A stretch of 64,000 nt of DNA from Herbiconiux sp. SALV-R1 (lineage in GTDB: Bacteria > Actinomycetota > Actinomycetes > Actinomycetales > Microbacteriaceae), in assembly GCF_013113715.1 (NCBI RefSeq), contig NZ_CP053344.1, positions 1,984,001-2,048,000 of the forward strand, in the 5' to 3' direction. The position numbers and the translations under genes were made by a program. Within the stretch, counting starts at the first letter, position 1. Every line of letters starts with the position of its first letter. Positions 36,272 through 46,281 of this stretch are shown piece after piece. A model generated the notes under the pieces. The model saw nothing but the letters and a program-made list of their open reading frames with translations, searched no databases and was not told the origin of the DNA.

Positions 36272-37477
36272 ATGAGCATCAGCGGATCCTGGCAGCGCAC
36301 GGCACGCGGTGCCGGCCTCCTCGGCGCCGACGGCCGCATCGCCTCGACCATCTTCGCCGAGATGAGCGGACTCGCCCAGCGCACCGGTGCGATCAACCTG
36401 GGCCAGGGCTTCCCCGATGAGGACGGGCCCGCCGAGGTGCTCGAGATCGCTCGCCAGGCCATCGCCGACGGGGTGAACCAGTACCCGCCCGGCCCCGGCA
36501 TCCCGGCCCTCCGGCACGCGGTCGCCGACCACCAGAAGCGGTTCTACGACCTCGACGTCGACGGCGACGCCGAGGTGCTGGTGACCGCAGGGGCGACCGA
36601 GGCCCTCGCCGCCACCATCCTCGCCCTGGTCGACGAGGGCGACGAGGTGCTCACCCTCGAGCCCTTCTACGACGCCTACGGCGGCCTGATCGCCCTCGCG
36701 CGCGGCGTGCACACGACGGTTCCGCTCCGGCTCCCCGACTTCCAGCCCGACCACGACGACCTGAGGGCCGCCGTGACCGACCGCACCCGGGTCATCCTCA
36801 TCAACAACCCGCACAACCCGACGGGCGCTGTGCTCCCCCGTGAGACGCTCGAGCTCGTGGTCGAGCTGGCCGAGCTCCACGACGCCGTGATCGTCACCGA
36901 CGAGGTCTACGAGCACCTCACCTTCGGGGTGAAGCCGGTGCCGGTGGCGACCCTCCCGGGTGCGCGCGAGCGCACCGTCACGATCTCGTCGGCCGGCAAG
37001 ACCTTCAGCACCACGGGCTGGAAGATCGGCTGGATCGTCTCGACGCCCGAGCTGGTGACGGCGATCACCGCGGTGAAGCAGTTCCTCACCTTCACCTCGG
37101 GGGCACCGTTCCAACCGGCGGTCGCCGCGGGGCTGGCGCTCCCCGACTCGTTCTACGAGGGCATCGCCACGACCCTGGAGGCCAAGCGCGACCTGCTGTC
37201 GGCGGGTCTCAGGGCTGCCGGCTTCGACGTGTCGACGCCGCAGGGCACCTACTTCGTGGTGGCCGACGCCGCGCCGCTCGGCTACCGCGACGGGGCGGAG
37301 CTTTGCCGCGAGCTGCCGGGCCTCGCGGGCGTCGTGGGGGTGCCGATCAGCGCCTTTTGCCACCCCGGGCTGGCCGAGGAGTACTCGAGCCTCGTGCGTT
37401 TCGCCTTCTGCAAGAAGACCGAGGTGCTCGAGCGCGCCGCGAGCCAGCTCGCGCAGCTGCAGCTCAGCGCGGGCTGA
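36272..37477 (+). CDS. class I PLP aminotransferase
   Basis: A 401-residue fold-type I enzyme: INLGQGFPDEDGP, AGATEALAATI, NNPHNPTG, TDEVYEHLTF and the PLP lysine in SSAGKTFSTTGWKIGW, then a C-terminal RFAFCK arginine. The closest functional types are N-succinyl-diaminopimelate (DapC-like), methionine or kynurenine aminotransferases, which sequence alone does not separate. TAGGTT at about 36239-36244 and GGAG before the ATG give a conventional leader. The 196-base region 36076-36271 upstream also serves htrA. The 3' end overlaps the convergent nitrilase gene by 14 bases. Confidence 0.92.
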   Translation: MSISGSWQRTARGAGLLGADGRIASTIFAEMSGLAQRTGAINLGQGFPDEDGPAEVLEIARQAIADGVNQYPPGPGIPALRHAVADHQKRFYDLDVDGDAEVLVTAGATEALAATILALVDEGDEVLTLEPFYDAYGGLIALARGVHTTVPLRLPDFQPDHDDLRAAVTDRTRVILINNPHNPTGAVLPRETLELVVELAELHDAVIVTDEVYEHLTFGVKPVPVATLPGARERTVTISSAGKTFSTTGWKIGWIVSTPELVTAITAVKQFLTFTSGAPFQPAVAAGLALPDSFYEGIATTLEAKRDLLSAGLRAAGFDVSTPQGTYFVVADAAPLGYRDGAELCRELPGLAGVVGVPISAFCHPGLAEEYSSLVRFAFCKKTEVLERAASQLAQLQLSAG

Positions 37478-38303
37478 CGTCGAAGCGGCGGAGCGCCAGC
37501 GCCGGGTTCACCCGCCGCACCTCGTCGATGCGCCGAGGGTCGACCCAGGCGACCGCCACGTCTTCTCGCTCGCCGAGCGAGGCGATCGTCACCCCCATCG
37601 GGTCGACGACGAGACTCGACCCCACGCCGATCGGCGGGGTCTGGTCGGCGGCGGCCACGTAGATCGTGTTCTCGAGCGCCCTGGCCACGACGAGCGAGCG
37701 CCAGTGGTGCTCCTTGAGCGGCCCGCGCACCCACTCCGCGGGCACGGCCACGAGGTCGGCGCCGGCGTCGACGAGCCGACGCGACACCTCGGGGAAGCGG
37801 ATGTCGTAGCAGGTCTGCAAGCCGATGGTCACGCCCTCGATCGAGAAGGTCTCCGGCTCGGCGATGCTGCCGGCCTCCACCCAGTCGCTCTCGCGCCCGC
37901 CGAAGGCGTCGTAGAGGTGCAGCTTGCTGTAACGCGCGACCACCCCGTCGGTCGGCGACACGGCGACCAGCACGTTCGCGAAGCGCCCAGGGTCGGAGGC
38001 GGTGGCCACGAGACCGGCGACCAGGTGCACGTCGAGCTCGTTCGCCAGGGCGGAGAGCGCGGTGACGAACGGGCCGTCGAGCGGCTCCGCGTTCTCGACG
38101 AGGCGCTCGCCCAGCGGGTCGACGAAGTAGGAGGAGTACTCGGGGAACACCACGAGCGACGCACCGCGCGCCGCGGCCTCCGTGGCGAGTCGGCGGATGG
38201 TGTCGAGGTTGGCTGCCTTGTCGTCACCGGGCGCGAACTGCGCGACCGCGACGCCGAAGCCCGGCACGCCGGCGCCCGTGACGCCCGCAGCCGCCGCGCT
38301 CAC
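37464..38303 (-). CDS. carbon-nitrogen hydrolase (nitrilase superfamily)
   Basis: A 279-residue amidase with the complete triad Glu55 (VFPEYSS), Lys127 (RYSKLHLYD) and Cys165 (LQTCYDIRFPE). The Nit2/omega-amidase-like branch fits best, hydrolysing an amide to acid plus ammonia; a true nitrile substrate is less likely. GTG 38303 overlaps the dehydrogenase stop (GTGA). As last gene of a six-gene unit it may process a pathway amide or be a repair or housekeeping amidase. Confidence 0.9.
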   Translation of the reverse strand: MSAAAAGVTGAGVPGFGVAVAQFAPGDDKAANLDTIRRLATEAAARGASLVVFPEYSSYFVDPLGERLVENAEPLDGPFVTALSALANELDVHLVAGLVATASDPGRFANVLVAVSPTDGVVARYSKLHLYDAFGGRESDWVEAGSIAEPETFSIEGVTIGLQTCYDIRFPEVSRRLVDAGADLVAVPAEWVRGPLKEHHWRSLVVARALENTIYVAAADQTPPIGVGSSLVVDPMGVTIASLGEREDVAVAWVDPRRIDEVRRVNPALALRRFDVSPR

Positions 38304-39337
38304 GACACCCTCGCATAGGCCTTGACGGCCCGCCGTTCGTCCATCGCCGCGTAGCCTTCGGCGAGGTTCTCGAACGCGACCTCGTAGTCGAACACCCGCC
38401 CGGGCTCGACCGACCCCTCGAGCACCTCGGTGAGCAGCGGGGGCAGATAGGCGCGCGCCGGGGCGAGCCCGCCTCCGAGCCCGACGTTGTTGCGGAACGC
38501 GATGCCGAGCGGGAACTCCACGTCGTGCGGCATGCCCACGATGCCCACCCGGCTGCCCGGCCGTGCCAACGCGAACGCCGTGGTGAACGACTCGGCCGTG
38601 CCCACGCACTCCAGCGTGGCGTCGACCCCCACACCGCCGGTGAGCTCCACGACCTCGGCCACCGCATCCGCTCCCCTGGCCTCGACCAGGTCGGTGGCGC
38701 CGAAGGCGGTGGCGATGGCCTGACGAGCGGGGTTGCGGCTGAGCGCGATGATGCGCGAGGCCCCGAGGCGCGATGCCGCCAGCACCCCGCTGAGCCCGAC
38801 GGCGCCGTCACCCACCACGGCCACCACGTCACCGGGGCGCACCCCCGCAGTCGTCGCGGCGTGGAACCCCGTGCCGTACACGTCGGAGAGCGCGAGCAGG
38901 TGGGGCAGCAGCTCGTCGGCGGGCTGCCCGCCCGGAACCACCACGAGGGTGCCGTCGGCGAGCGGCACCCGCACGAACTGGCCCTGGCCGCCGTCGACCC
39001 CCTTCGCGGCGAAGAACCCGCCGTGCACGCAGGAGCTCGTGATGCCGTTCACGCAGTGCACGCAGCTGCCGTCGCTGTACATGAACGGCGACACCACGAA
39101 GTCGCCCACGGCGACGCGCCCGACGTCGGTGCCGACCTCTTCGACGACGCCGATGAACTCGTGGCCGATGCGGGAGCCCGGGGGCCGCTCCGACTGGCCG
39201 CGGTAGTACCAGAGGTCGGAGCCGCAGACGCAGGTGGCGACCACGCGCACGATGGCGTCGGTCGAGGCCTCGATGACGGGGTCGGGGACGTCGCTCATGG
39301 TGACCGAGTAGGCGTCGTTGTAGAGGAGCGCGCGCAT
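38300..39337 (-). CDS. zinc-dependent medium-chain alcohol dehydrogenase
   Basis: A 345-residue MDR enzyme. Catalytic zinc ligands Cys38, His59 and Glu60 (CVCGSD, GHE) are present. The structural zinc loop CVHCVNGITSSC keeps three cysteines. The NAD(P) site VVGDGAVGL opens the Rossmann half. It starts nine bases after the P450 stop, so it is coupled. It could oxidise an alcohol produced by the P450 or reduce an aldehyde intermediate; direction and substrate are unknown. Confidence 0.9.
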   Translation of the reverse strand: MRALLYNDAYSVTMSDVPDPVIEASTDAIVRVVATCVCGSDLWYYRGQSERPPGSRIGHEFIGVVEEVGTDVGRVAVGDFVVSPFMYSDGSCVHCVNGITSSCVHGGFFAAKGVDGGQGQFVRVPLADGTLVVVPGGQPADELLPHLLALSDVYGTGFHAATTAGVRPGDVVAVVGDGAVGLSGVLAASRLGASRIIALSRNPARQAIATAFGATDLVEARGADAVAEVVELTGGVGVDATLECVGTAESFTTAFALARPGSRVGIVGMPHDVEFPLGIAFRNNVGLGGGLAPARAYLPPLLTEVLEGSVEPGRVFDYEVAFENLAEGYAAMDERRAVKAYARVS

Positions 39338-39346
39338 GATCAGACT

Positions 39347-40525
39347 CTACCGGCGTGCGAGCACGAGGGAGCCGTAGCCCGGGATGAGCGTGCGGCGCTG
39401 TGCCCGCCGGTGCACGATCTCGAGCGGGCCGGCCCGCTCCGCCGCGAGCACGGCGTCGAGCACGAGCCCGATCTGGGCCATGGCGAGCGGCGCGCCGAGG
39501 CAGAAGTGCGCGCCGGCGCCGAACCACAGCTGCTTGAGCGAGGCCGCCGGGTTCGCCACGGGGTCGAAGGCCCCGGATGCGCGGTCGGCCAGGAAGGTCG
39601 CCAGCACCAGGCGGTCTCCCGGTCGCACCCGCACTCCCGCGAGCGTCGCCTCGGCGACGACGCTGCGCAGCATCACCGGGGAGGGGGTCGTGACACGGAG
39701 TCCCTCGGCGACCGCGGCGTCGACGAGGGCTCGGTCGTGGGCGAGCCGGTGCAGCCAGCCGGTGTCGGCGAGCACGGCGACCAGGCGCGGCAGGTACGAC
39801 ACGAGGGTCTCCGTGCCGGTGAGCACGAAGGCTCCGACGGCCCCCATCGCCTCGTCTTCGCCGAGGCCGAGTTCGCGCATCCGCCCCGGCACCGTGTCGC
39901 CGCCGCCCTCGCGGTAGGCGCGGCGGGCGTGCCGGGTGAGGTCGTCGAGCACCGCGCGGGCCGCGGCGGCCTGCCGGTCGCTGAACCGCGGGCGGGAGAG
40001 CCGCACGAGCCCGGTGACGCCCGAGACCCGGGCGAACAGCTCCTCGCCCAGCACCTCCTCGTCGAGCCCGACCAGCCGGCTGATCACCCTCCCCGCGTAC
40101 TCGCGCACCTCGGCCACCAGGTCGACCCGTTCGCCCCGGTCGAGCCGCTCGGTGAGTCGCTCGGCCGAGGCACCCACGGTCTCCCGCGTGAGCTCGGCGA
40201 CGTACCCGGGGGCGAACAGCGGTGCGAGCCGCCGGCGCAGGGCGTGGTGGTCGGCGCCCTCCATGTTGAGCAGCACCGAGGGCCCGAGCACGGGCGTCCA
40301 GAGATCGGCGGGCGAGCCGGGGCCGGTCTTGGTGAAGCGCTCCTGGTCGAGCAGCACCGAGCGCAGCACGGCGGCATCGGAGACGACGACGCCGATGCGC
40401 GGCACGCGCAGCACGGGCCTCCGCACCCGGCTGAGCAGCGGGTAGACGAGCGGATGCGCGGTGCGCTGCACCCGCTCCTCCCACCGCCGCTCGGGTGCGA
40501 CGGGCCGCGCACCCACGAGGGTCAC
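39347..40525 (-). CDS. cytochrome P450
   Basis: A 392-residue soluble bacterial P450. The I-helix motif is TGTET (236-240), ExxR is EGLR (274-277), and the haem loop is FGAGAHFCLG with ligand Cys342. The C-terminal end lacks a fused reductase, and no ferredoxin or ferredoxin reductase is in the window, so redox partners must come from elsewhere. GTG 40525 overlaps the KAS III stop (GTGA). It is probably a tailoring hydroxylase for the product of the upstream genes. It is not CYP152/OleT-like: no such motif is visible. Confidence 0.94.
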   Translation of the reverse strand: MTLVGARPVAPERRWEERVQRTAHPLVYPLLSRVRRPVLRVPRIGVVVSDAAVLRSVLLDQERFTKTGPGSPADLWTPVLGPSVLLNMEGADHHALRRRLAPLFAPGYVAELTRETVGASAERLTERLDRGERVDLVAEVREYAGRVISRLVGLDEEVLGEELFARVSGVTGLVRLSRPRFSDRQAAAARAVLDDLTRHARRAYREGGGDTVPGRMRELGLGEDEAMGAVGAFVLTGTETLVSYLPRLVAVLADTGWLHRLAHDRALVDAAVAEGLRVTTPSPVMLRSVVAEATLAGVRVRPGDRLVLATFLADRASGAFDPVANPAASLKQLWFGAGAHFCLGAPLAMAQIGLVLDAVLAAERAGPLEIVHRRAQRRTLIPGYGSLVLARR

Positions 40526-41535
40526 AGCCGCACCACCATCACACCCAGCGAGATGCCGCCGGCCAGACCGACCAGCGCCACGAGGCTCCCCGGCCCCACG
40601 AGCCCCTGCTCCCTCGCCCGTTCGAGCTGCAGCGGCAGGGTCACGGAGGCGAGGTTGCCGTGCTCGGCGACGGTGAGCAGCGAGCGACGCGGATCGAGCC
40701 CGAGCGCCGCGACGATGGTGTCGTGATAGGCCGCCGCCACCTGGTGCACCGCGACGAAGTCGAGCTCGTCGACGGTGTGCCCCACCTCGGCGAGCGCCTC
40801 CTCGACGAGCCCGACGCCGAGCTCGGCGAAGGCGCGCTGCAGGGCGGCGCCGTCCATGTCGAAGTAGCTGCCGCCCTCGGCGTGCGGGTTCACCGATCCG
40901 CCGGTGGGGAGGGTGCCGACCGGCCAGTGCTCCGAGTGGGCGACGAACCTGCTGCCGAGGATGCCCTGCTCCACCTCGGCTGGCGCCGCCTCGAGCACTA
41001 CGGCGGCACCCCCGTCGCTCATCGTGTACCCCGCGAAGCTGCGCAGGAACTGCTCCTTGTCGCGGAGGCGCCAGCGCACCGCGTGGGAGGGCTGCTCGCC
41101 GCTGGCCACCAGCACCCGCCGGTAGCGGCCGCCCGCGATGAGCGCCTCGGCGACCTCGAGGGCGTTGATGACGCTGTTGCAGGCGTTCTTGACGTCCATC
41201 ACCGGGCAGTCGAGCCCGAGCTTGGCCGAGACGATGTGGCTGGTGGCGGGCTCGATGAGGTCTTGGCTGGCGGAGGCGAACAGCAGCAGGTCGACCGGCC
41301 CGGGTGACTCGGCGAGCGCCGTGCGGGCCGCCGCCACGGCCAGGTCGGAGGTCTGCCAGCCCTCGGGGCGCAGGTGCACCGCCTCCACCCCGGTGAGGCG
41401 TCTCACGAGGCCGGCCGGGAGGGCCAGCTCGGGGTTCTCCTGCCGCAGCCGCTCCTCGGTCTCGGCAGCCGAACGGCGCTCCTCGGGGAGGTAGGTGGCG
41501 ACGGCGGCGACGCGGGCACGCATCCGTGCCGTCAC
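40522..41535 (-). CDS. 3-oxoacyl-ACP synthase III-family condensing enzyme (OleA-like)
   Basis: A 337-residue thiolase-fold enzyme with a complete Cys-His-Asn triad: Cys119 in VKNACNSV, His264 in VHQVAAAY and Asn294 in EHGNLAS. NAC rather than AACS around the nucleophile is closer to OleA-type head-to-head condensing enzymes than to housekeeping FabH; this is a motif-level judgement. It would join two activated acyl units, or one with malonyl-ACP. GTG 41535 overlaps the epimerase stop (GTGA). Confidence 0.88.
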   Translation of the reverse strand: MTARMRARVAAVATYLPEERRSAAETEERLRQENPELALPAGLVRRLTGVEAVHLRPEGWQTSDLAVAAARTALAESPGPVDLLLFASASQDLIEPATSHIVSAKLGLDCPVMDVKNACNSVINALEVAEALIAGGRYRRVLVASGEQPSHAVRWRLRDKEQFLRSFAGYTMSDGGAAVVLEAAPAEVEQGILGSRFVAHSEHWPVGTLPTGGSVNPHAEGGSYFDMDGAALQRAFAELGVGLVEEALAEVGHTVDELDFVAVHQVAAAYHDTIVAALGLDPRRSLLTVAEHGNLASVTLPLQLERAREQGLVGPGSLVALVGLAGGISLGVMVVRL

Positions 41536-42560
41536 TCCCCCGCCTCCCGCAGCGAGGCGACGAAGCGCTCGATCCCCTCGTCGAGCGTCACGGCGGGCGG
41601 GCCGAGCAGCGCGAGGCACGGGCTCACGTCGAAGGTCTTGCTGAAGGCTGACACGATGATCGAGTATCTCGTGATCGGCGGCTCCCCGCGACGCCGCAGC
41701 ACCCGCCACGCCGTCTCGACCGCCGTCGCCGCGGCGAGCGCGACCCGTCGCGACACGATGCGCGTGGGTGCCGGCAGCCCGGCGCCGGTGAGGATGCGCG
41801 CCAGCGTCGCCTGCAGCGGCACCGGCTGCGCGTTGGTGACGGCGAGTGTGCGCCCGGGTACGCCGTCGGCGGTGAGCGCCCGGACGAGGTACTCCACCAG
41901 CGTGTCGATGTACACCAGGTCGCTCAGCACCGGGCGATCGTGCGGCTCCCCGAACCGTGGCAGCCTCCCGCGCTCGGCCAGGGCGGCCAGGCGCGGGTAG
42001 AGCGTGGTGTCGCCCGGGCCGAACACCGCGCGCGGGCGCAGCACCACCCACTCGCCGCGGTAGCCGCGCACCACCTCCTCGGCCTCCGCCTTGGTGGCCG
42101 CATAGCGGTTCACGAAACGGGCGGGCAGGGGCGCGTCGTCGCGCAGCAGGAGCTGGTCGCGGGCCTCGTAGAGAACGGATGCGGTCGACACGAACACCAG
42201 GCGCGGCGCCTGGTCGAGACCCACGGCATAGCGCACGACCGCCCGGGTGGCCTCGACGTTCTCGGCGGTGAACTCGGCTGCGGTGCCCCACGGGGCGCTG
42301 CGCGCCGCCGCGTGCACGATCACGTCGGGCTCGAACGGCGCCAGGGCGGCGAGCTCCTCCGCCGCAGTGGACGAAGTGAGGTCGACGGAGCGGTAGAGCT
42401 CGTCGTCGAGGCGGCGGCGGCCGGTGCCCCGCACGGCGAAGGAGGGGTCGTGGCGCAGGCGCTCGAGGAGGGCACCGCCGACGAAGCCCGAGGCACCGGT
42501 CACGAGCACCCGGGTAGGGGCCGGCGCCGGTGTCGCCGCCGCGGGGGTCGGGGCGGTCAT
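41532..42560 (-). CDS. NAD-dependent epimerase/dehydratase (3beta-HSD/OleD-like)
   Basis: A 342-residue extended SDR with TGASGFVG at residues 21-28, VHAAA near 82, a catalytic Ser/Thr in VSTASVLYE, and Tyr153 and Lys157 in RYAATKAEAEE. The FVSTAS...YAATK layout resembles the 3beta-hydroxysteroid dehydrogenase/OleD group that reduces beta-keto acids after condensation. The ATG overlaps the adenylate-forming gene (ATGA). Partnering with the neighbouring KAS III is inferred. Confidence 0.88.
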   Translation of the reverse strand: MTAPTPAAATPAPAPTRVLVTGASGFVGGALLERLRHDPSFAVRGTGRRRLDDELYRSVDLTSSTAAEELAALAPFEPDVIVHAAARSAPWGTAAEFTAENVEATRAVVRYAVGLDQAPRLVFVSTASVLYEARDQLLLRDDAPLPARFVNRYAATKAEAEEVVRGYRGEWVVLRPRAVFGPGDTTLYPRLAALAERGRLPRFGEPHDRPVLSDLVYIDTLVEYLVRALTADGVPGRTLAVTNAQPVPLQATLARILTGAGLPAPTRIVSRRVALAAATAVETAWRVLRRRGEPPITRYSIIVSAFSKTFDVSPCLALLGPPAVTLDEGIERFVASLREAGE

Positions 42561-43942
42561 ACGGCGTGCTCCCGCGCGATGCGCCGCAGCTTCGTGGCGG
42601 GGTCGCGCGCGACCCAGGGTTCCTCGATCACCCTGGCCGAGCATCCGTGAGTCTCGAGCAGGTGCTCGATCGACGAGGTCGCGGCCTCGGCGGCCCCCGG
42701 GGCCGCGTCGCGCAGCGAGAAGTGGAGATCGAGGCCGCGCTGGCGCAGCGTCCAGTCGGTGAAGGGCTCGCCGTCCTGCGGCGTCAGCACGGAGGCGAAG
42801 GCCTGCCGCACCGTGTCGGGGAACAGCTCGACGAGACGGCGCCCGTCGGTCGACGGGAGCTCGAGCACGGCGTCGGCGCGGCCCTCGACTTCGGCGACCA
42901 CCGTGGTCACGCGGCCGCAGGCGCAGCGCTCGGGAGCCTGCGGGTCGACGCGCAGCACGTCGTCGAGGCGGTAGCGCAGCACCAGCTGCGTGCGACGCTC
43001 CACGTCGCTCAGCACGGGCACGAAGCGGGTGCGGGCCGCATCGAGCCACTCGCGCTCGACGACGACCGACTCCTCGTTGAGGTGGAGCGCCCCCGCGTGG
43101 CAGCTGACTCCGAGCAGTCCCTCCGTCGCCTGGTACACCTGCCGCACGGGCCGGCCCCAGGCCGCGACGATGCGCTCGGCGAGATCGGGCTCGAGCACCT
43201 CGGCGACCGACACCACCTGCAGCGGCCGGAACCCGGAGGCGCCGCGCAGCGCGTCTCGGGCCAGGGCGTCGAGCACCGACGCGGGGGCCACGAGGAGCTC
43301 GGGGGCTTCGCCCGCGGCCTCGGCGCGGGCGAGCTCGGTGCGGTGCGTGTCGAGGGGTTCGGTGAGGTCGAAGAAGGTGAAGCGCACCCGCGAGCTCGAC
43401 ACCGATTCGTACAGGTGCCCGCCCGCCCTCAGGAAGAAGCCGATGCGCAGCGGCGGCTCCCAGAAGCGGGCGATCCGGCCCAGTGCGGTGGTGTCGAGGA
43501 GGCGGCCGAGCACGGTTCCGGCCCAGAGCATGCGTTCGCGCGGGCTCACGAGGAACACGCCCCGCCGGCCCGAGGTGCCGCTCGACAGCCCCACGGTGAG
43601 GTCGCCGGCGACGACCGGCGCGAAGTCGCGGCTGCGCTCGGCCTCGAGCGCGACGCCCAGCGCCTCGGCGAGACGGACGCCCCGGATGTTCAGCTCGTCG
43701 AAGTGGGCGAGCACAGTCTGCTTGTCGACGACCGGGAAGTCGTCGAGACGGCGGCGACCACCTGGAGCGACCCGCGACGCGTAGAAGGGCGAGCGGGCCG
43801 CGCGCCTCAGCAGTGCGGCGAGGCGGCGCGCCTGGTGGCGTTCGATGGCGGCACGCGACCGGAAGCGGCGGCCCCAGCGCGCCCGCACGAAACGGCCGAG
43901 CAGCGCCGCGGTGTGGAGGTGCTCCGAGAGGTGGCGCGTCAC
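42557..43942 (-). CDS. adenylate-forming enzyme, CapK/F390-synthetase-related
   Basis: A 461-residue AMP-forming ligase of the phenylacetate-CoA ligase/coenzyme F390 synthetase-related type (TIGR02304-like). ATP loop SSGTSGRRG starts at residue 120, YQATEG is the A5-like motif, and RYRLDDVLRVD with a later CACGR cysteine cluster follows. Such enzymes activate a carboxylate as acyl-AMP. First gene of the unit, it would prime the substrate for the KAS III. GTG 43942 has no ribosome site, but TATTCT ends six bases before it. Confidence 0.88.
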   Translation of the reverse strand: MTRHLSEHLHTAALLGRFVRARWGRRFRSRAAIERHQARRLAALLRRAARSPFYASRVAPGGRRRLDDFPVVDKQTVLAHFDELNIRGVRLAEALGVALEAERSRDFAPVVAGDLTVGLSSGTSGRRGVFLVSPRERMLWAGTVLGRLLDTTALGRIARFWEPPLRIGFFLRAGGHLYESVSSSRVRFTFFDLTEPLDTHRTELARAEAAGEAPELLVAPASVLDALARDALRGASGFRPLQVVSVAEVLEPDLAERIVAAWGRPVRQVYQATEGLLGVSCHAGALHLNEESVVVEREWLDAARTRFVPVLSDVERRTQLVLRYRLDDVLRVDPQAPERCACGRVTTVVAEVEGRADAVLELPSTDGRRLVELFPDTVRQAFASVLTPQDGEPFTDWTLRQRGLDLHFSLRDAAPGAAEAATSSIEHLLETHGCSARVIEEPWVARDPATKLRRIAREHAV

Positions 43943-43948
43943 TTCCCC

Positions 43949-43999
43949 AGAATAGGGGCAGGAGTCGGCGGCCGGATGCCTCGTGCTGCCTCGTAGACT
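43949..43999. promoter_or_regulatory. divergent leaderless promoters
   Basis: On the minus strand TATTCT (43949-43954) ends six bases before GTG 43942 of the adenylate-forming gene. On the plus strand TAGACT (43994-43999) ends six bases before ATG 44006. Both predict transcription beginning at the start codon. Confidence 0.6.
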
Positions 44000-44005
44000 T
44001 GCGGC

Positions 44006-44713
44006 ATGGCGGGGATCATCGGGCACATCCTGCCTCTCGCGCTCGGGGTGGCGCTCAGTTCGGTGCCCATCGTGGTGATGGTGCTCATCCTGCTCTCGCC
44101 GCGCGGTCGATGGTCGGGCCTTGCCTACCTCATCGGGGCCGTCGTCGGCCTCGCCGGACTCACCGGTCTGTTCACGGCGATCGCCTCGCTCATCCCACCC
44201 GTGCCCGGGTCGGATCACAGTCCCCTCATCGCGGTGATCGAGTGGGTGGTCGGCGCCGGCCTCATCGTGATGGCGGTCATCCGTCTGGTGCGCTCCCGGC
44301 GCAAGGCGCGGTCGTCGACCGACGGCCTCGAGCTCTTCGACGACGAGGTGCCGGCCACGACCCCGGCGTGGATGACGAGACTCACGAGGCTCGGGCCGCT
44401 GCCCTCTCTCGGCGTGGGCTTCGTGCTCATGCTGCGGCCGAAGAACCTGCTGCTCACCATCGCCGCGGGCGTCGCCATCGCGACCGGAGACGCGTCGTTC
44501 GCCGAGACCGTGGTGGCCGTCGTCATCTTCGTCGTGCTCGGCATCTCGACCCTCGCCGCCCCGATCATCTTCGCCCTCGCCGACCCCGCCCGCACGGCGA
44601 AGCCGCTCGAGGAGACGCGCGTGTGGATCACCCGCAACAGCGCGACGGTCACCACCATCGTGCTGCTCGTGCTCGGCACCGTCGTCATCGGCAGCGGCCT
44701 CACCCACTTCTGA
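44006..44713 (+). CDS. GAP-family (Sap, sulfolipid-addressing-like) membrane protein
   Basis: A 235-residue protein with six predicted helices: LPLALGVALSSVPIVVMVLIL first, then GLAYLIGAVVGLAG, and a cytosolic basic loop RSRRKARS before GPLPSLGVGFVLMLRPKNLLL, the family hallmark. Mycobacterial members help export surface glycolipids. It may export a lipid-like product; the divergent cluster next door is suggestive, but nothing in the sequence proves a link. No family-specific catalytic residues are visible. Confidence 0.87.
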   Translation: MAGIIGHILPLALGVALSSVPIVVMVLILLSPRGRWSGLAYLIGAVVGLAGLTGLFTAIASLIPPVPGSDHSPLIAVIEWVVGAGLIVMAVIRLVRSRRKARSSTDGLELFDDEVPATTPAWMTRLTRLGPLPSLGVGFVLMLRPKNLLLTIAAGVAIATGDASFAETVVAVVIFVVLGISTLAAPIIFALADPARTAKPLEETRVWITRNSATVTTIVLLVLGTVVIGSGLTHF

Positions 44714-44742: not shown

Positions 44743-46281
44743 TCAGTGGAAGTCGCGCAGGAAGCGCTCGAACTCCACCCTGCCCGTCGAGGCCGGTGAG
44801 CCCGTCACCTCGCCGATGCGGAGCACGGTGAGCCCGGAGTAGGCGGAGGGCGTGCCGGAGAATGCGTCTCGGATGTGCGACCAGCCCACCCAGCTGGGTG
44901 TGCCGCTGGCTCCGAGGTTGCCCGCCAGCGCGTTCTCACCCTTCAGCGTTACCCCGGCTTTGTTCGCTGCGGCGCCGACCCAGCGCACGAGCGACGCCGC
45001 GTCGGAGTAGGCGTGGGCCCCGCCGTCCCACTCCCGGCCGTCGGGCATCTCGAGAGCGGTGAAGTGCAGCACCACCGGGTGCGGGCCCGAGCTGGCAGCG
45101 ATGCTCTTCACCCCGGCGAGGAGCGGTTCGTAGCCGAAGTCGGTGGCCGAGCCGTTGTAGTCCTGGTCGGTGTGCACGAGCCCCGCCGCGATCTCGGGAG
45201 CCCGGCGGATCGGGCTCGTCGACATGGTCTGCCAGTGCACTCCGGGGATCTTGATGCCGAGCGGCACCGTGCCGAAGCCGCCGTCGAAGGCCCGTGCCGC
45301 CTCGGCCATCACCTCGCTGCCGTGCCGCAGGAGGCTCTCGTGGTACCAGCGGGTGAAGTCGCGCCCGTAGCGGAGCGAGTGGTACGACCCCGAGGTGATG
45401 AAACGGTCGTGGTCGGTCGGCGGCGTGATGGCGGAGTACGTCAGACCCGGGATGCTCCAGGCCGTCGCGACACCCGCGACCGACCCGTAACGGGCCACCG
45501 CCCAGTCGGCGAACGACCGCACCGCGGAGTCGGTGTAGCTCTGGAAGGTGCCGCGGTTGGGGTAGCCTGCCGGGTCTCCCGCGACTTTGGCGTCGTGGGA
45601 GTTGTACGAGGGGTACCGCAACTCACCCGCGGGGCCCGTGCTCACCGAGATCTCCTGCACCCGCCCGGTGTAGTCGTGACCGGCCGAGGTGAAGTGATCT
45701 TCGAAGGCGTTCATGAACTCGCGCATGTCGGCGAGCGTGCGATCGGCCCCTACACCCCACGGGGCAGGTGCTTCCTTGCTGATGTTGCCGTACTCGCTGA
45801 CGAAGTAGTCGTCGACCGGCGCGCTCGAGCAGCCGGCGATGCCGCAGAGCTGATAGGGCTCCCATACCCAGGAGGGCACCGGGATGTCGCAGTCGTCGCC
45901 GACGTTGCCACCGCACTGGTGGAACGACATCAACGGCACCAGGTCGAGCCCCGCATCCGTCACCGCGGCGAACAGCTTGTCGTAGTAGCCCCAGTCGAAG
46001 GAGCCCCTGGCCGGCTCTGCCTTGCCCCACCAGACGTCGACGGCGACCGCGTCGACCCCCTGGCTCGCCGCCACCGTGAGCGAGGAGGTGAAGGCGCGCC
46101 AGCGCGGACCGTCGCCCGCCCAGTCGTCGATCCACAGCGGGGCCATGACATTGACCGTCTGGGCGGGGCCGGGCACCGCCGCGGTGGCCGCCGGGACGAG
46201 ACCCGGGGCGGCGGCGAGGGCCGAGGAGAGGAGGGTGGCCGCGAGCGCGAGGCCCGTGCGGGAGGTGATGCGAGATGACAT
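44743..46281 (-). CDS. secreted beta-amylase (GH14)
   Basis: A 512-residue exported glycoside hydrolase with a signal peptide of about 35 residues (LALAATLLSSALAAAPGL). GH14 blocks are VDVWWGKAEP, LMSFHQCGGNVGDDC, STGPAGELRYPSY with catalytic acid Glu220, GIKIPGVHW and LKGENAL with base Glu449. It releases beta-maltose from starch non-reducing ends. No starch-binding domain is visible at the C-terminus. Beta-amylase is well known in plants and some bacilli and sparse elsewhere. Confidence 0.95.
   Translation of the reverse strand: MSSRITSRTGLALAATLLSSALAAAPGLVPAATAAVPGPAQTVNVMAPLWIDDWAGDGPRWRAFTSSLTVAASQGVDAVAVDVWWGKAEPARGSFDWGYYDKLFAAVTDAGLDLVPLMSFHQCGGNVGDDCDIPVPSWVWEPYQLCGIAGCSSAPVDDYFVSEYGNISKEAPAPWGVGADRTLADMREFMNAFEDHFTSAGHDYTGRVQEISVSTGPAGELRYPSYNSHDAKVAGDPAGYPNRGTFQSYTDSAVRSFADWAVARYGSVAGVATAWSIPGLTYSAITPPTDHDRFITSGSYHSLRYGRDFTRWYHESLLRHGSEVMAEAARAFDGGFGTVPLGIKIPGVHWQTMSTSPIRRAPEIAAGLVHTDQDYNGSATDFGYEPLLAGVKSIAASSGPHPVVLHFTALEMPDGREWDGGAHAYSDAASLVRWVGAAANKAGVTLKGENALAGNLGASGTPSWVGWSHIRDAFSGTPSAYSGLTVLRIGEVTGSPASTGRVEFERFLRDFH

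Follow-up and report, generated by a model that had tools for sequence, protein, structure and literature searches.

The question raised by this locus is what might be made by an operon that combines an OleA-like condensing enzyme and an OleD-like reductase with an adenylate-forming ligase of the PaaK/F390-synthetase-related class. The operon lies in a 64,000-nucleotide stretch of DNA (the window) from the soil and plant bacterium Herbiconiux sp. SALV-R1 (contig NZ_CP053344.1, positions 1984001-2048000; genome of ~4.5 Mb, ~72% G+C; G000 below). The initial annotation, made from the DNA letters, treated the locus as an uncharacterised six-gene pathway that activates, condenses, reduces, and then oxidizes a carboxylic acid. 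The core of that description holds, and the six-gene pathway becomes a swapped-ligase variant of the actinobacterial OleA-P450 lipid pathway. With a probability of roughly 0.6, the genes named here CAPK, OLED, OLEA, and P450 form an Ole-type operon in which the ligase has been exchanged and whose product would be a modified 2-alkyl-3-hydroxy acid, activated by CAPK to a beta-lactone, an ester, or an amide. The operon has the following parts, in order of transcription:

43949..43954, minus strand: -10 hexamer TATTCT, predicted leaderless promoter of the operon, 6 bases before the GTG of CAPK
42557..43942, minus strand: CAPK, PaaK/F390-synthetase-related adenylate-forming ligase, 461 aa (TIGR02304)
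41532..42560, minus strand: OLED, OleD-like NAD(P)-dependent SDR, 342 aa (best NCBIfam match OleD; Tyr153xxxLys157)
40522..41535, minus strand: OLEA, OleA-like thiolase/KAS III, 337 aa (Cys119-His264-Asn294, OleA-type Glu95)
39347..40525, minus strand: cytochrome P450, 392 aa (PF00067)
38300..39337, minus strand: zinc alcohol dehydrogenase (ADH), 345 aa, accessory and variable (PF08240/PF00107)
37464..38303, minus strand: nitrilase-superfamily amidase (NIT), deaminated glutathione amidase-like, 279 aa (NF033621, under cut-off)

All six genes lie on the minus strand where they had first been placed. Genes 1 and 2 overlap by ATGA, genes 2 and 3 and genes 3 and 4 by GTGA, and genes 5 and 6 by GTGA, with a 9-base gap between genes 4 and 5; the 4-base overlaps are real, but they come as three in a row plus one, rather than the reported four in a row plus one. 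The catalytic residues previously named are present in the translations (SSGTSG in CAPK, Tyr153/Lys157 in OLED, Cys119-His264-Asn294 in OLEA, Cys342 in the P450, Cys38-His59-Glu60 in ADH, and Glu55-Lys127-Cys165 in the nitrilase), and those of OLEA were also confirmed as alignment columns. The TATTCT promoter likewise stands where it had been read, 6 bases ahead of the GTG start of gene 1. Three arrangements are distinguished below: type 1 (OLEA>GT2>P450>ligase>OleD), type 2 (the Herbiconiux operon and other CAPK-bearing relatives of it), and type 3 (a separate module of KAS III, SDR, MBL-fold hydrolase, and TIGR02304 ligase).

OLEA is OleA-like rather than FabH-like because it retains Glu95, as do all 104 distinct KAS IIIs of the clusters. 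This residue aligns with Glu117 of X. campestris OleA, whose role is taken from the title of a work cited in the excerpted text of PMC7064751; the two FabHs in that alignment have no acid there. A larger alignment of 127 rows comprised 109 cluster KAS IIIs, seven Ole-cluster OleAs (those beside an 840-946-aa ligase-type protein and OleD), nine KAS IIIs of type 3, and a further two KAS-like proteins encoded by the window genome; left out were rows L097-L104 (genomes already covered by G-handle loci), KAS III calls of <250 aa, and L280 (no KAS III call). The glutamate is present in 109/109 cluster rows (104 distinct sequences, window included) and in 7/7 OleAs (five over and two under the PRK09258 cut-off), and in 0/9 type 3 KAS IIIs and 0/2 of the other KAS-like proteins, while Cys119, His264, and Asn294 are constant across 127/127 rows. 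In the KAS III tree, for which the tool warned of long branches, the cluster KAS IIIs and the OleAs share one group (support 92), separate from all other rows. The enzyme is thus an OleA-like KAS III, as first assigned, and falls outside housekeeping FabH. A KAS III above the PRK09258 cut-off is found in 82/198 genomes of the order; its neighbors were viewed in six, with L214 left unresolved by the gene caller.

The best of all NCBIfam models for OLED is the 2-alkyl-3-oxoalkanoate reductase OleD (NF042422), which agrees with its earlier reading as an OleD-like reductase, although the score is below the cut-off. With the oleABCD olefin pathway (OleA, an OleBC fusion, and OleD in Micrococcales), the Herbiconiux operon shares the OleA glutamate and catalytic triad and an OleD-like SDR; it differs in having no OleB and no OleC-type ligase and in having a P450 and ADH. 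Both absences had been claimed from the sequence and stand: the OleB part of an OleBC fusion gave no match at 1e-5 in G000, G015, or G040 and was found in 3/3 ole-bearing controls, and the sole ligase in the operon is the TIGR02304 protein, the ligase query of the genome being that of type 1 and not a canonical OleC. The lipstatin and nocardiolactone clusters also use OleA/C/D logic without OleB and have beta-lactone products; Herbiconiux has a single KAS III, a TIGR02304 ligase for OleC, and a P450. LstA/LstB of the lipstatin cluster are described in excerpts of PMC7064751. A term search of PMC7158056, on ole genes in Gram-positives, found nothing on P450, Herbiconiux, Agromyces, or Microbacteriaceae.

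A contig scan of genomes recovered 181 relatives of the KAS III, and gene-order counts cover the best 80: 55 have the type 1 order, 11 belong to the CAPK/Agromyces type, 10 are incomplete or interrupted, and in 4 the contig ends within the locus. Overlaps occur at 160/220 junctions of the 55 type 1 loci, a count that is approximate because gene starts are gene-caller predictions. Hosts of type 1 include Microbacteriaceae, Micrococcaceae, Promicromonosporaceae, Cellulomonadaceae, Jonesiaceae, and Pseudonocardiaceae, and within the sampled Microbacteriaceae the KAS III occurs in 25/299 genomes and 14/85 genera. The P450 had been proposed as a late oxidation add-on; instead, no other gene accompanies the KAS III as constantly, and the two form a fixed pair. 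Its sequence carries the motifs FGAGAHFCLG, TGTET, and EGLR, without a close solved relative, and a motif search of its homologues found the Cys loop and ExxR in 107/107 and the I-helix motif in 104/107.

A second P450 (34-38% to the operon P450) lies on the opposite strand upstream of type 1 OLEA in many Promicromonosporaceae/Cellulomonadaceae loci (L124-L126, L131, L133, L134, L136-L138, and others).

The parent gene set has been described in print for one strain, Actinoplanes atraurantiacus, for which excerpts of PMC7064751 report the same five classes, an active OleA, and a guessed hydroxylated, glycosylated beta-lactone. The ligase there precedes the P450 and is read as an OleC acting after OleD. 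To call the pathway uncharacterised thus needs qualifying: the parent gene set is a described one, with a product that is only predicted. Compared by description, the Actinoplanes cluster likewise has the OleA, OleD, and P450 classes together and no OleB, whereas Herbiconiux has no glycosyltransferase or OleC-type ligase and has a TIGR02304 ligase and zinc ADH. A Streptomyces viridifaciens plasmid also has the ligase before the P450, the same as the stated Actinoplanes order and unlike the 55 type 1 loci. Phage or plasmid origin was rejected: 6 pattern matches in viral contigs included none that were related, and the 112 matching plasmid records were all at <60% identity.

By sequence comparison, OLEA and the P450 are orthologous to those of the type 1 cluster. 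In a tree of OLEA plus P450 from 47 chosen loci, a branch with support of 100 separates type 2 and the Microbacteriaceae type 1 loci from the 17 type 1 loci outside that family; the type 1 rows here, as in the KAS III and OLED trees and the topology tests, are a selected subset. Since type 1 is the neighbor and outgroup of type 2, with OleA outside, the simplest reading is that GT2 and the ligase were lost and CAPK was gained; the operon would thus descend from the actinobacterial OleA-GT2-P450-ligase-OleD arrangement. Searched at 1e-10, the type 1 ligase and GT2 have no match in G000; across the seven genomes searched, 29-36% matches to the ligase occur in 4/7 and partial 38-43% matches to GT2 occur in 5/7. 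Type 2 OLEDs form one clade (support 99) that adjoins the type 1 OLEDs (support 94), apart from type 3, in a tree whose type 3 row L280 is a miscalled 69-aa fragment and which lacks L282. This placement does not support a joint import of OLED and CAPK from type 3.

CAPK exceeds the TIGR02304 (F390 synthetase-related) cut-off (318.2 versus 251.9 bits), which bears out its assignment to the CapK/PaaK/F390 class; it had no Pfam match and no PDB sequence match. SSGTSG, YQATEG, GRxD, and the C-terminal Lys451 are invariant across 11 aligned CAPKs. TIGR02304 is rare in the phylum sample: of 396 genomes, only that of the window exceeds the cut-off, and another 20 give weaker matches. A CAPK relative occurs in 13/299 family genomes. 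In 14 regions around more distant TIGR02304-like proteins from other actinobacteria (24-34%), some on short contigs, there is no adjoining OLEA or OLED.

The nearest kin of CAPK would be the ligases of type 3. Three Microbacteriaceae without an OLEA match (G148, G268, and G086, the last split over two contigs) have the order SDR>MBL-fold>CAPK>KAS III, with a single MBL gene between SDR and CAPK. A CAPK relative is found on 26 plasmid records; of nine regions examined, seven carry KAS III, SDR, MBL-fold hydrolase, and TIGR02304, and two Pseudomonas megaplasmids are without the complete four-gene set. The module occurs in Pseudomonadota and Bacillota (Paenibacillus to Escherichia coli). In the CAPK tree, from which L282 (a 71-aa call) was left out, type 2 falls inside the type 3 radiation (support 98), where it belongs to a set of 20 rows that also includes one Paraburkholderia sequence (support 95). 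Type 3 resembles the operon in its TIGR02304-type ligase, its SDR (36-39% to OLED in Microbacteriaceae), and its KAS III; it differs in that this KAS III is without the OleA glutamate (0/9) and in having an MBL hydrolase and no P450.

An E. coli plasmid (NZ_CP141085.1, L281:4041-10922) carries a seven-gene operon of KAS III, SDR, MBL fold, F390 synthetase-related, PAP2, fatty-acid hydroxylase, and fatty-acid desaturase genes beside narGHJI. Matches to it occur in 672/5,426 E. coli genomes, with 671 places chromosomal and 2 on plasmids, and no publication on it was found in the openly licensed PubMed Central (PMC) literature.

From the gene content, residues, linkage, and trees observed, we infer the reactions, their order, and the product as follows. 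OLEA would join two acyl-thioesters head to head, with the CO2 kept, to give a 2-alkyl-3-keto acid, which OLED would reduce to the 2-alkyl-3-hydroxy acid. The P450 would modify the acyl chain, perhaps aided by the zinc ADH here and by glycosyltransferases elsewhere. CAPK would adenylate the carboxyl in place of an OleC-type ligase, and hydroxyl attack would yield a beta-lactone, or an ester or amide with another acceptor. By analogy, hydroxyl attack on an acyl-adenylate would be the chemistry that OleC performs within one molecule. The closest folds to the CAPK model (pLDDT 73) are the PaaK-family AMP-ligases AjiA1, PaaK1, NatL2, and ClxA, which differ from it in sequence (14-20% identity) and whose known substrates, in the excerpted literature, are aryl acids. 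Excerpts of PMC7204872 describe a benzoxazole formed via an ester that the adenylating enzyme NatL2 makes, and the products of ClxA are, in excerpted text, phenyl benzoate esters; among PaaK-type enzymes there is thus precedent for the attack of a hydroxyl on an acyl-adenylate.

The initial annotation had CAPK acting first, activating a free carboxylic acid that would feed OLEA. CAPK does head the operon, the CoA ligase PaaK1 is among its fold relatives, and three species that have no OLEA still carry it. However, CAPK adjoins OLED, just as the parent-cluster ligase adjoins OleD (LIG>OLED) and is read as OleC after OleD in excerpts of PMC7064751; in type 3, one MBL gene separates SDR and CAPK; and X. 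campestris OleA, in the same excerpts, uses acyl-CoAs. These counterarguments are all indirect. This order is unlikely, and the ligase more likely acts after OLED, replacing OleC. The lipid-type product that had been proposed remains plausible.

Several observations weigh against an Ole-type operon with an exchanged ligase. OLEA scores 158.6 bits to PRK09258/NF006720 (taken as the OleA model) and does not reach its cut-off of 285, and OLED, at 152.2 bits, is far below the NF042422 cut-off of 580. The CAPK model has a pLDDT of only 73 and template modeling (TM) scores of 0.46-0.48 to its best chains, with a root-mean-square deviation of over 11 A (about 0.45-0.48 and over 10 A for the PaaK-family ligases named above), and because of these values the match indicates fold class only. 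Type 3 KAS IIIs are without the glutamate, so the linkage of TIGR02304 to KAS III is not a linkage to OleA proper. On its own, the KAS III does not reject a single type 1 group (p-AU 0.32); statistical proof from this gene of type 2 nested in type 1 was not reached, and the derivation of type 2 therefore rests on best-tree branching order and parsimony. A single type 2 clade that includes Psychromicrobium is not established, nor is it rejected (p-AU 0.36); Psychromicrobium falls apart from the other type 2 loci. Three Herbiconiux species, G003, G004, and G012, are without OLEA and ADH, and G003 is also without OLED, and all three retain CAPK, which argues against strict coupling; CAPK may have a role independent of OLEA, or those three operons may be under reduction. 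Finally, Foldseek with the AlphaFold model of OLEA (pLDDT 88) ranks FabHs first and OleA twelfth (TM 0.81-0.87).

This last result bears on whether the KAS III could be a housekeeping-type FabH in an accidental neighborhood, since its top PDB sequence and fold matches are both FabHs. The modeled fold matches FabH and OleA about equally and so does not decide between them. Glu95, the placement beside OleA (support 92), and a gene order that stays fixed across several families make a FabH highly improbable, and that identity was rejected on Glu95 and the tree, although the fold search does not separate the two.

Within the genus, CAPK is present in 16/16 Herbiconiux genomes (1e-20) and OLEA is present in 13/16 (1e-30). 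The full order CAPK>OLED>OLEA>P450>ADH>NIT is found in 11/16; G010 is without ADH only, and G014 is split between contigs. The three genomes without OLEA (loci L044, L045, and L053) form one clade of the CAPK tree (support 100) and keep CAPK, P450, the divergent SfLAP gene described below, and the nitrilase. There is a 4-base overlap between CAPK and P450 in G003; in G004, a single stop-free frame of 812 aa spans OLED and P450. Free variation of neighbors, named beforehand as evidence against the pathway, was seen for ADH (missing in 4/16) and for the KAS III in this three-species clade, and not otherwise.

The missing genes (OLEA in 3/16, OLED in 1/16, and ADH in 4/16 genomes) could mean that the operon is shrinking to CAPK-P450 within the genus, with OLEA and OLED dispensable and no single pathway product. 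Consistent with this, within-genus identities (near-identical G015 excluded) are lower for CAPK (51-65%) and OLED (56-63%) than for OLEA (63-80%) and the nitrilase (81-88%). However, 13/16 genomes keep an OLEA in which all four checked residues are retained, the leaderless promoter is conserved in the OLEA-less species also, the three losses fall in one clade, and the G004 OLED-P450 frame is odd but is not plain decay. General shrinkage of this kind is quite improbable, and we continue to read the operon as an Ole-type one with a swapped ligase.

Outside the genus, the core genes stay together in more than one genus, as had been proposed from the Herbiconiux sequence. The same order recurs in one further Microbacteriaceae genus (G040). 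Agromyces sp. Root81 has CAPK>OLED>GT21>190 aa>MGT>OLEA>P450, and A. tardus has that order from GT21 onward, up to a contig end. In Psychromicrobium the order is CAPK>ATP-grasp/GNAT protein>OLEA>P450, with OleD behind; the ATP-grasp/GNAT protein has 761 aa (L119:6702-8987), and the operon looks like a mosaic, with a type 3-style ATP-grasp/GNAT protein beside a type 1-like OLEA and P450. Gene orders outside the window rest on our own gene calls, and overlap counts there are approximate.

A 1.3-Mb genome, G258 (L093), carries CAPK, OLEA, and P450 cut by a contig end, and a Microbacteriaceae genome of 1.3-1.4 Mb, G260 (L094), keeps a type 1 operon. Perhaps the product matters to these very small Microbacteriaceae genomes.

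These variants bear on a further alternative, which denies only the lactone: CAPK might hand the 2-alkyl-3-hydroxyacyl group to the hydroxyl or amine of a head group, giving a complex mycolate-like lipid whose export SfLAP would aid. An SfLAP-family membrane protein gene is divergently adjacent and conserved, the Agromyces operon includes two glycosyltransferases, and the Psychromicrobium ATP-grasp/GNAT protein is encoded between CAPK and OLEA. Type 3 plasmid regions include an ATP-grasp gene in 3/7 and a GNAT gene in 2/7, and the E. coli operon has its PAP2, fatty-acid hydroxylase, and desaturase genes. However, the Herbiconiux operon is without an acceptor or acyltransferase gene, and SfLAP persists where OLEA has been lost. 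Such a lipid is a serious possibility, if one held at somewhat less than even odds.

More tentatively, TIGR02304 ligases may be a second, PaaK-type class that closes or transfers 3-hydroxyacyl groups after KAS III and SDR, one that replaced OleC as the beta-lactone or ester synthetase of type 2 and serves an unrecognised lipid pathway in type 3. In the openly licensed PMC literature, the name "F390 synthetase-related" had no match, no tested function for TIGR02304 was found, and there was no publication on a CAPK/OleD/OleA operon among the matches listed; PMC2649909, on ladderane gene clusters, contains "F390 synthetase" once. If the swapped-ligase reading is true, TIGR02304 would gain a definite predicted substrate, and replacement of OleC by CAPK would offer a natural way to test it. 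The analysis also shows the OleA-P450 pair, found in print for one strain only, to be a broad actinobacterial system with an exchangeable activating enzyme.

The remaining genes of the operon stand apart from this core. ADH was not found in the operon region of 4/16 Herbiconiux genomes (G003, G004, G010, and G012) and is variable and accessory. The nitrilase had been counted as the sixth member of the cluster, a place that it loses: it is present in 70/80 family genomes, its best NCBIfam match (NF033621) is below the cut-off, and it is retained in the Herbiconiux species without OLEA. The same aminotransferase, which we take to be of the pyridoxal-phosphate class, adjoins it in 22/30 of the best such loci by tblastn, and among the 22 genomes with the two side by side an OLEA match was confined to G000 and G040. 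The two are presumably a general-metabolism amidase/transaminase pair. On the occurrence of the nitrilase (70/80 genomes) and its pairing with the aminotransferase (22/30 loci), both were rejected as pathway members; the nitrilase is probably housekeeping-like. The features that flank the operon are as follows:

36272..37477, plus strand: pyridoxal-phosphate aminotransferase, beside the nitrilase in 22/30 loci by tblastn
43994..43999, plus strand: -10 hexamer TAGACT, predicted divergent leaderless promoter of the SfLAP gene
44006..44713, plus strand: SfLAP/GAP-family membrane protein, divergent (PF11139, 126.4 bits)

The two promoters were compared across 16 regions: the window, 14 regions from other Herbiconiux genomes, and G040. 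The pattern TANNNT-N6-NTG opens the CAPK frame in 15/16 regions, L049 being the exception, and TANNNT lies at -12 to -7 of the divergent SfLAP gene in 15/16 regions (in L043, the gene caller chose another start). In the same DNA, TANNNT stands in that position for 88/20,747 NTG triplets (0.4%), and the match is thus far above chance. The retention of TANNNT at both starts therefore indicates conserved back-to-back leaderless promoters, and the geometry at the operon head is, as predicted from the DNA, leaderless. The SfLAP gene adjoins CAPK in 15/15 regions covering that side (14 Herbiconiux and G040).

Beyond the SfLAP gene, the window encodes a glycosyl hydrolase family 14 (beta-amylase family) protein on the minus strand (44743-46281; 512 aa, 290 bits to PF01373), a family that to our knowledge is uncommon in bacteria.

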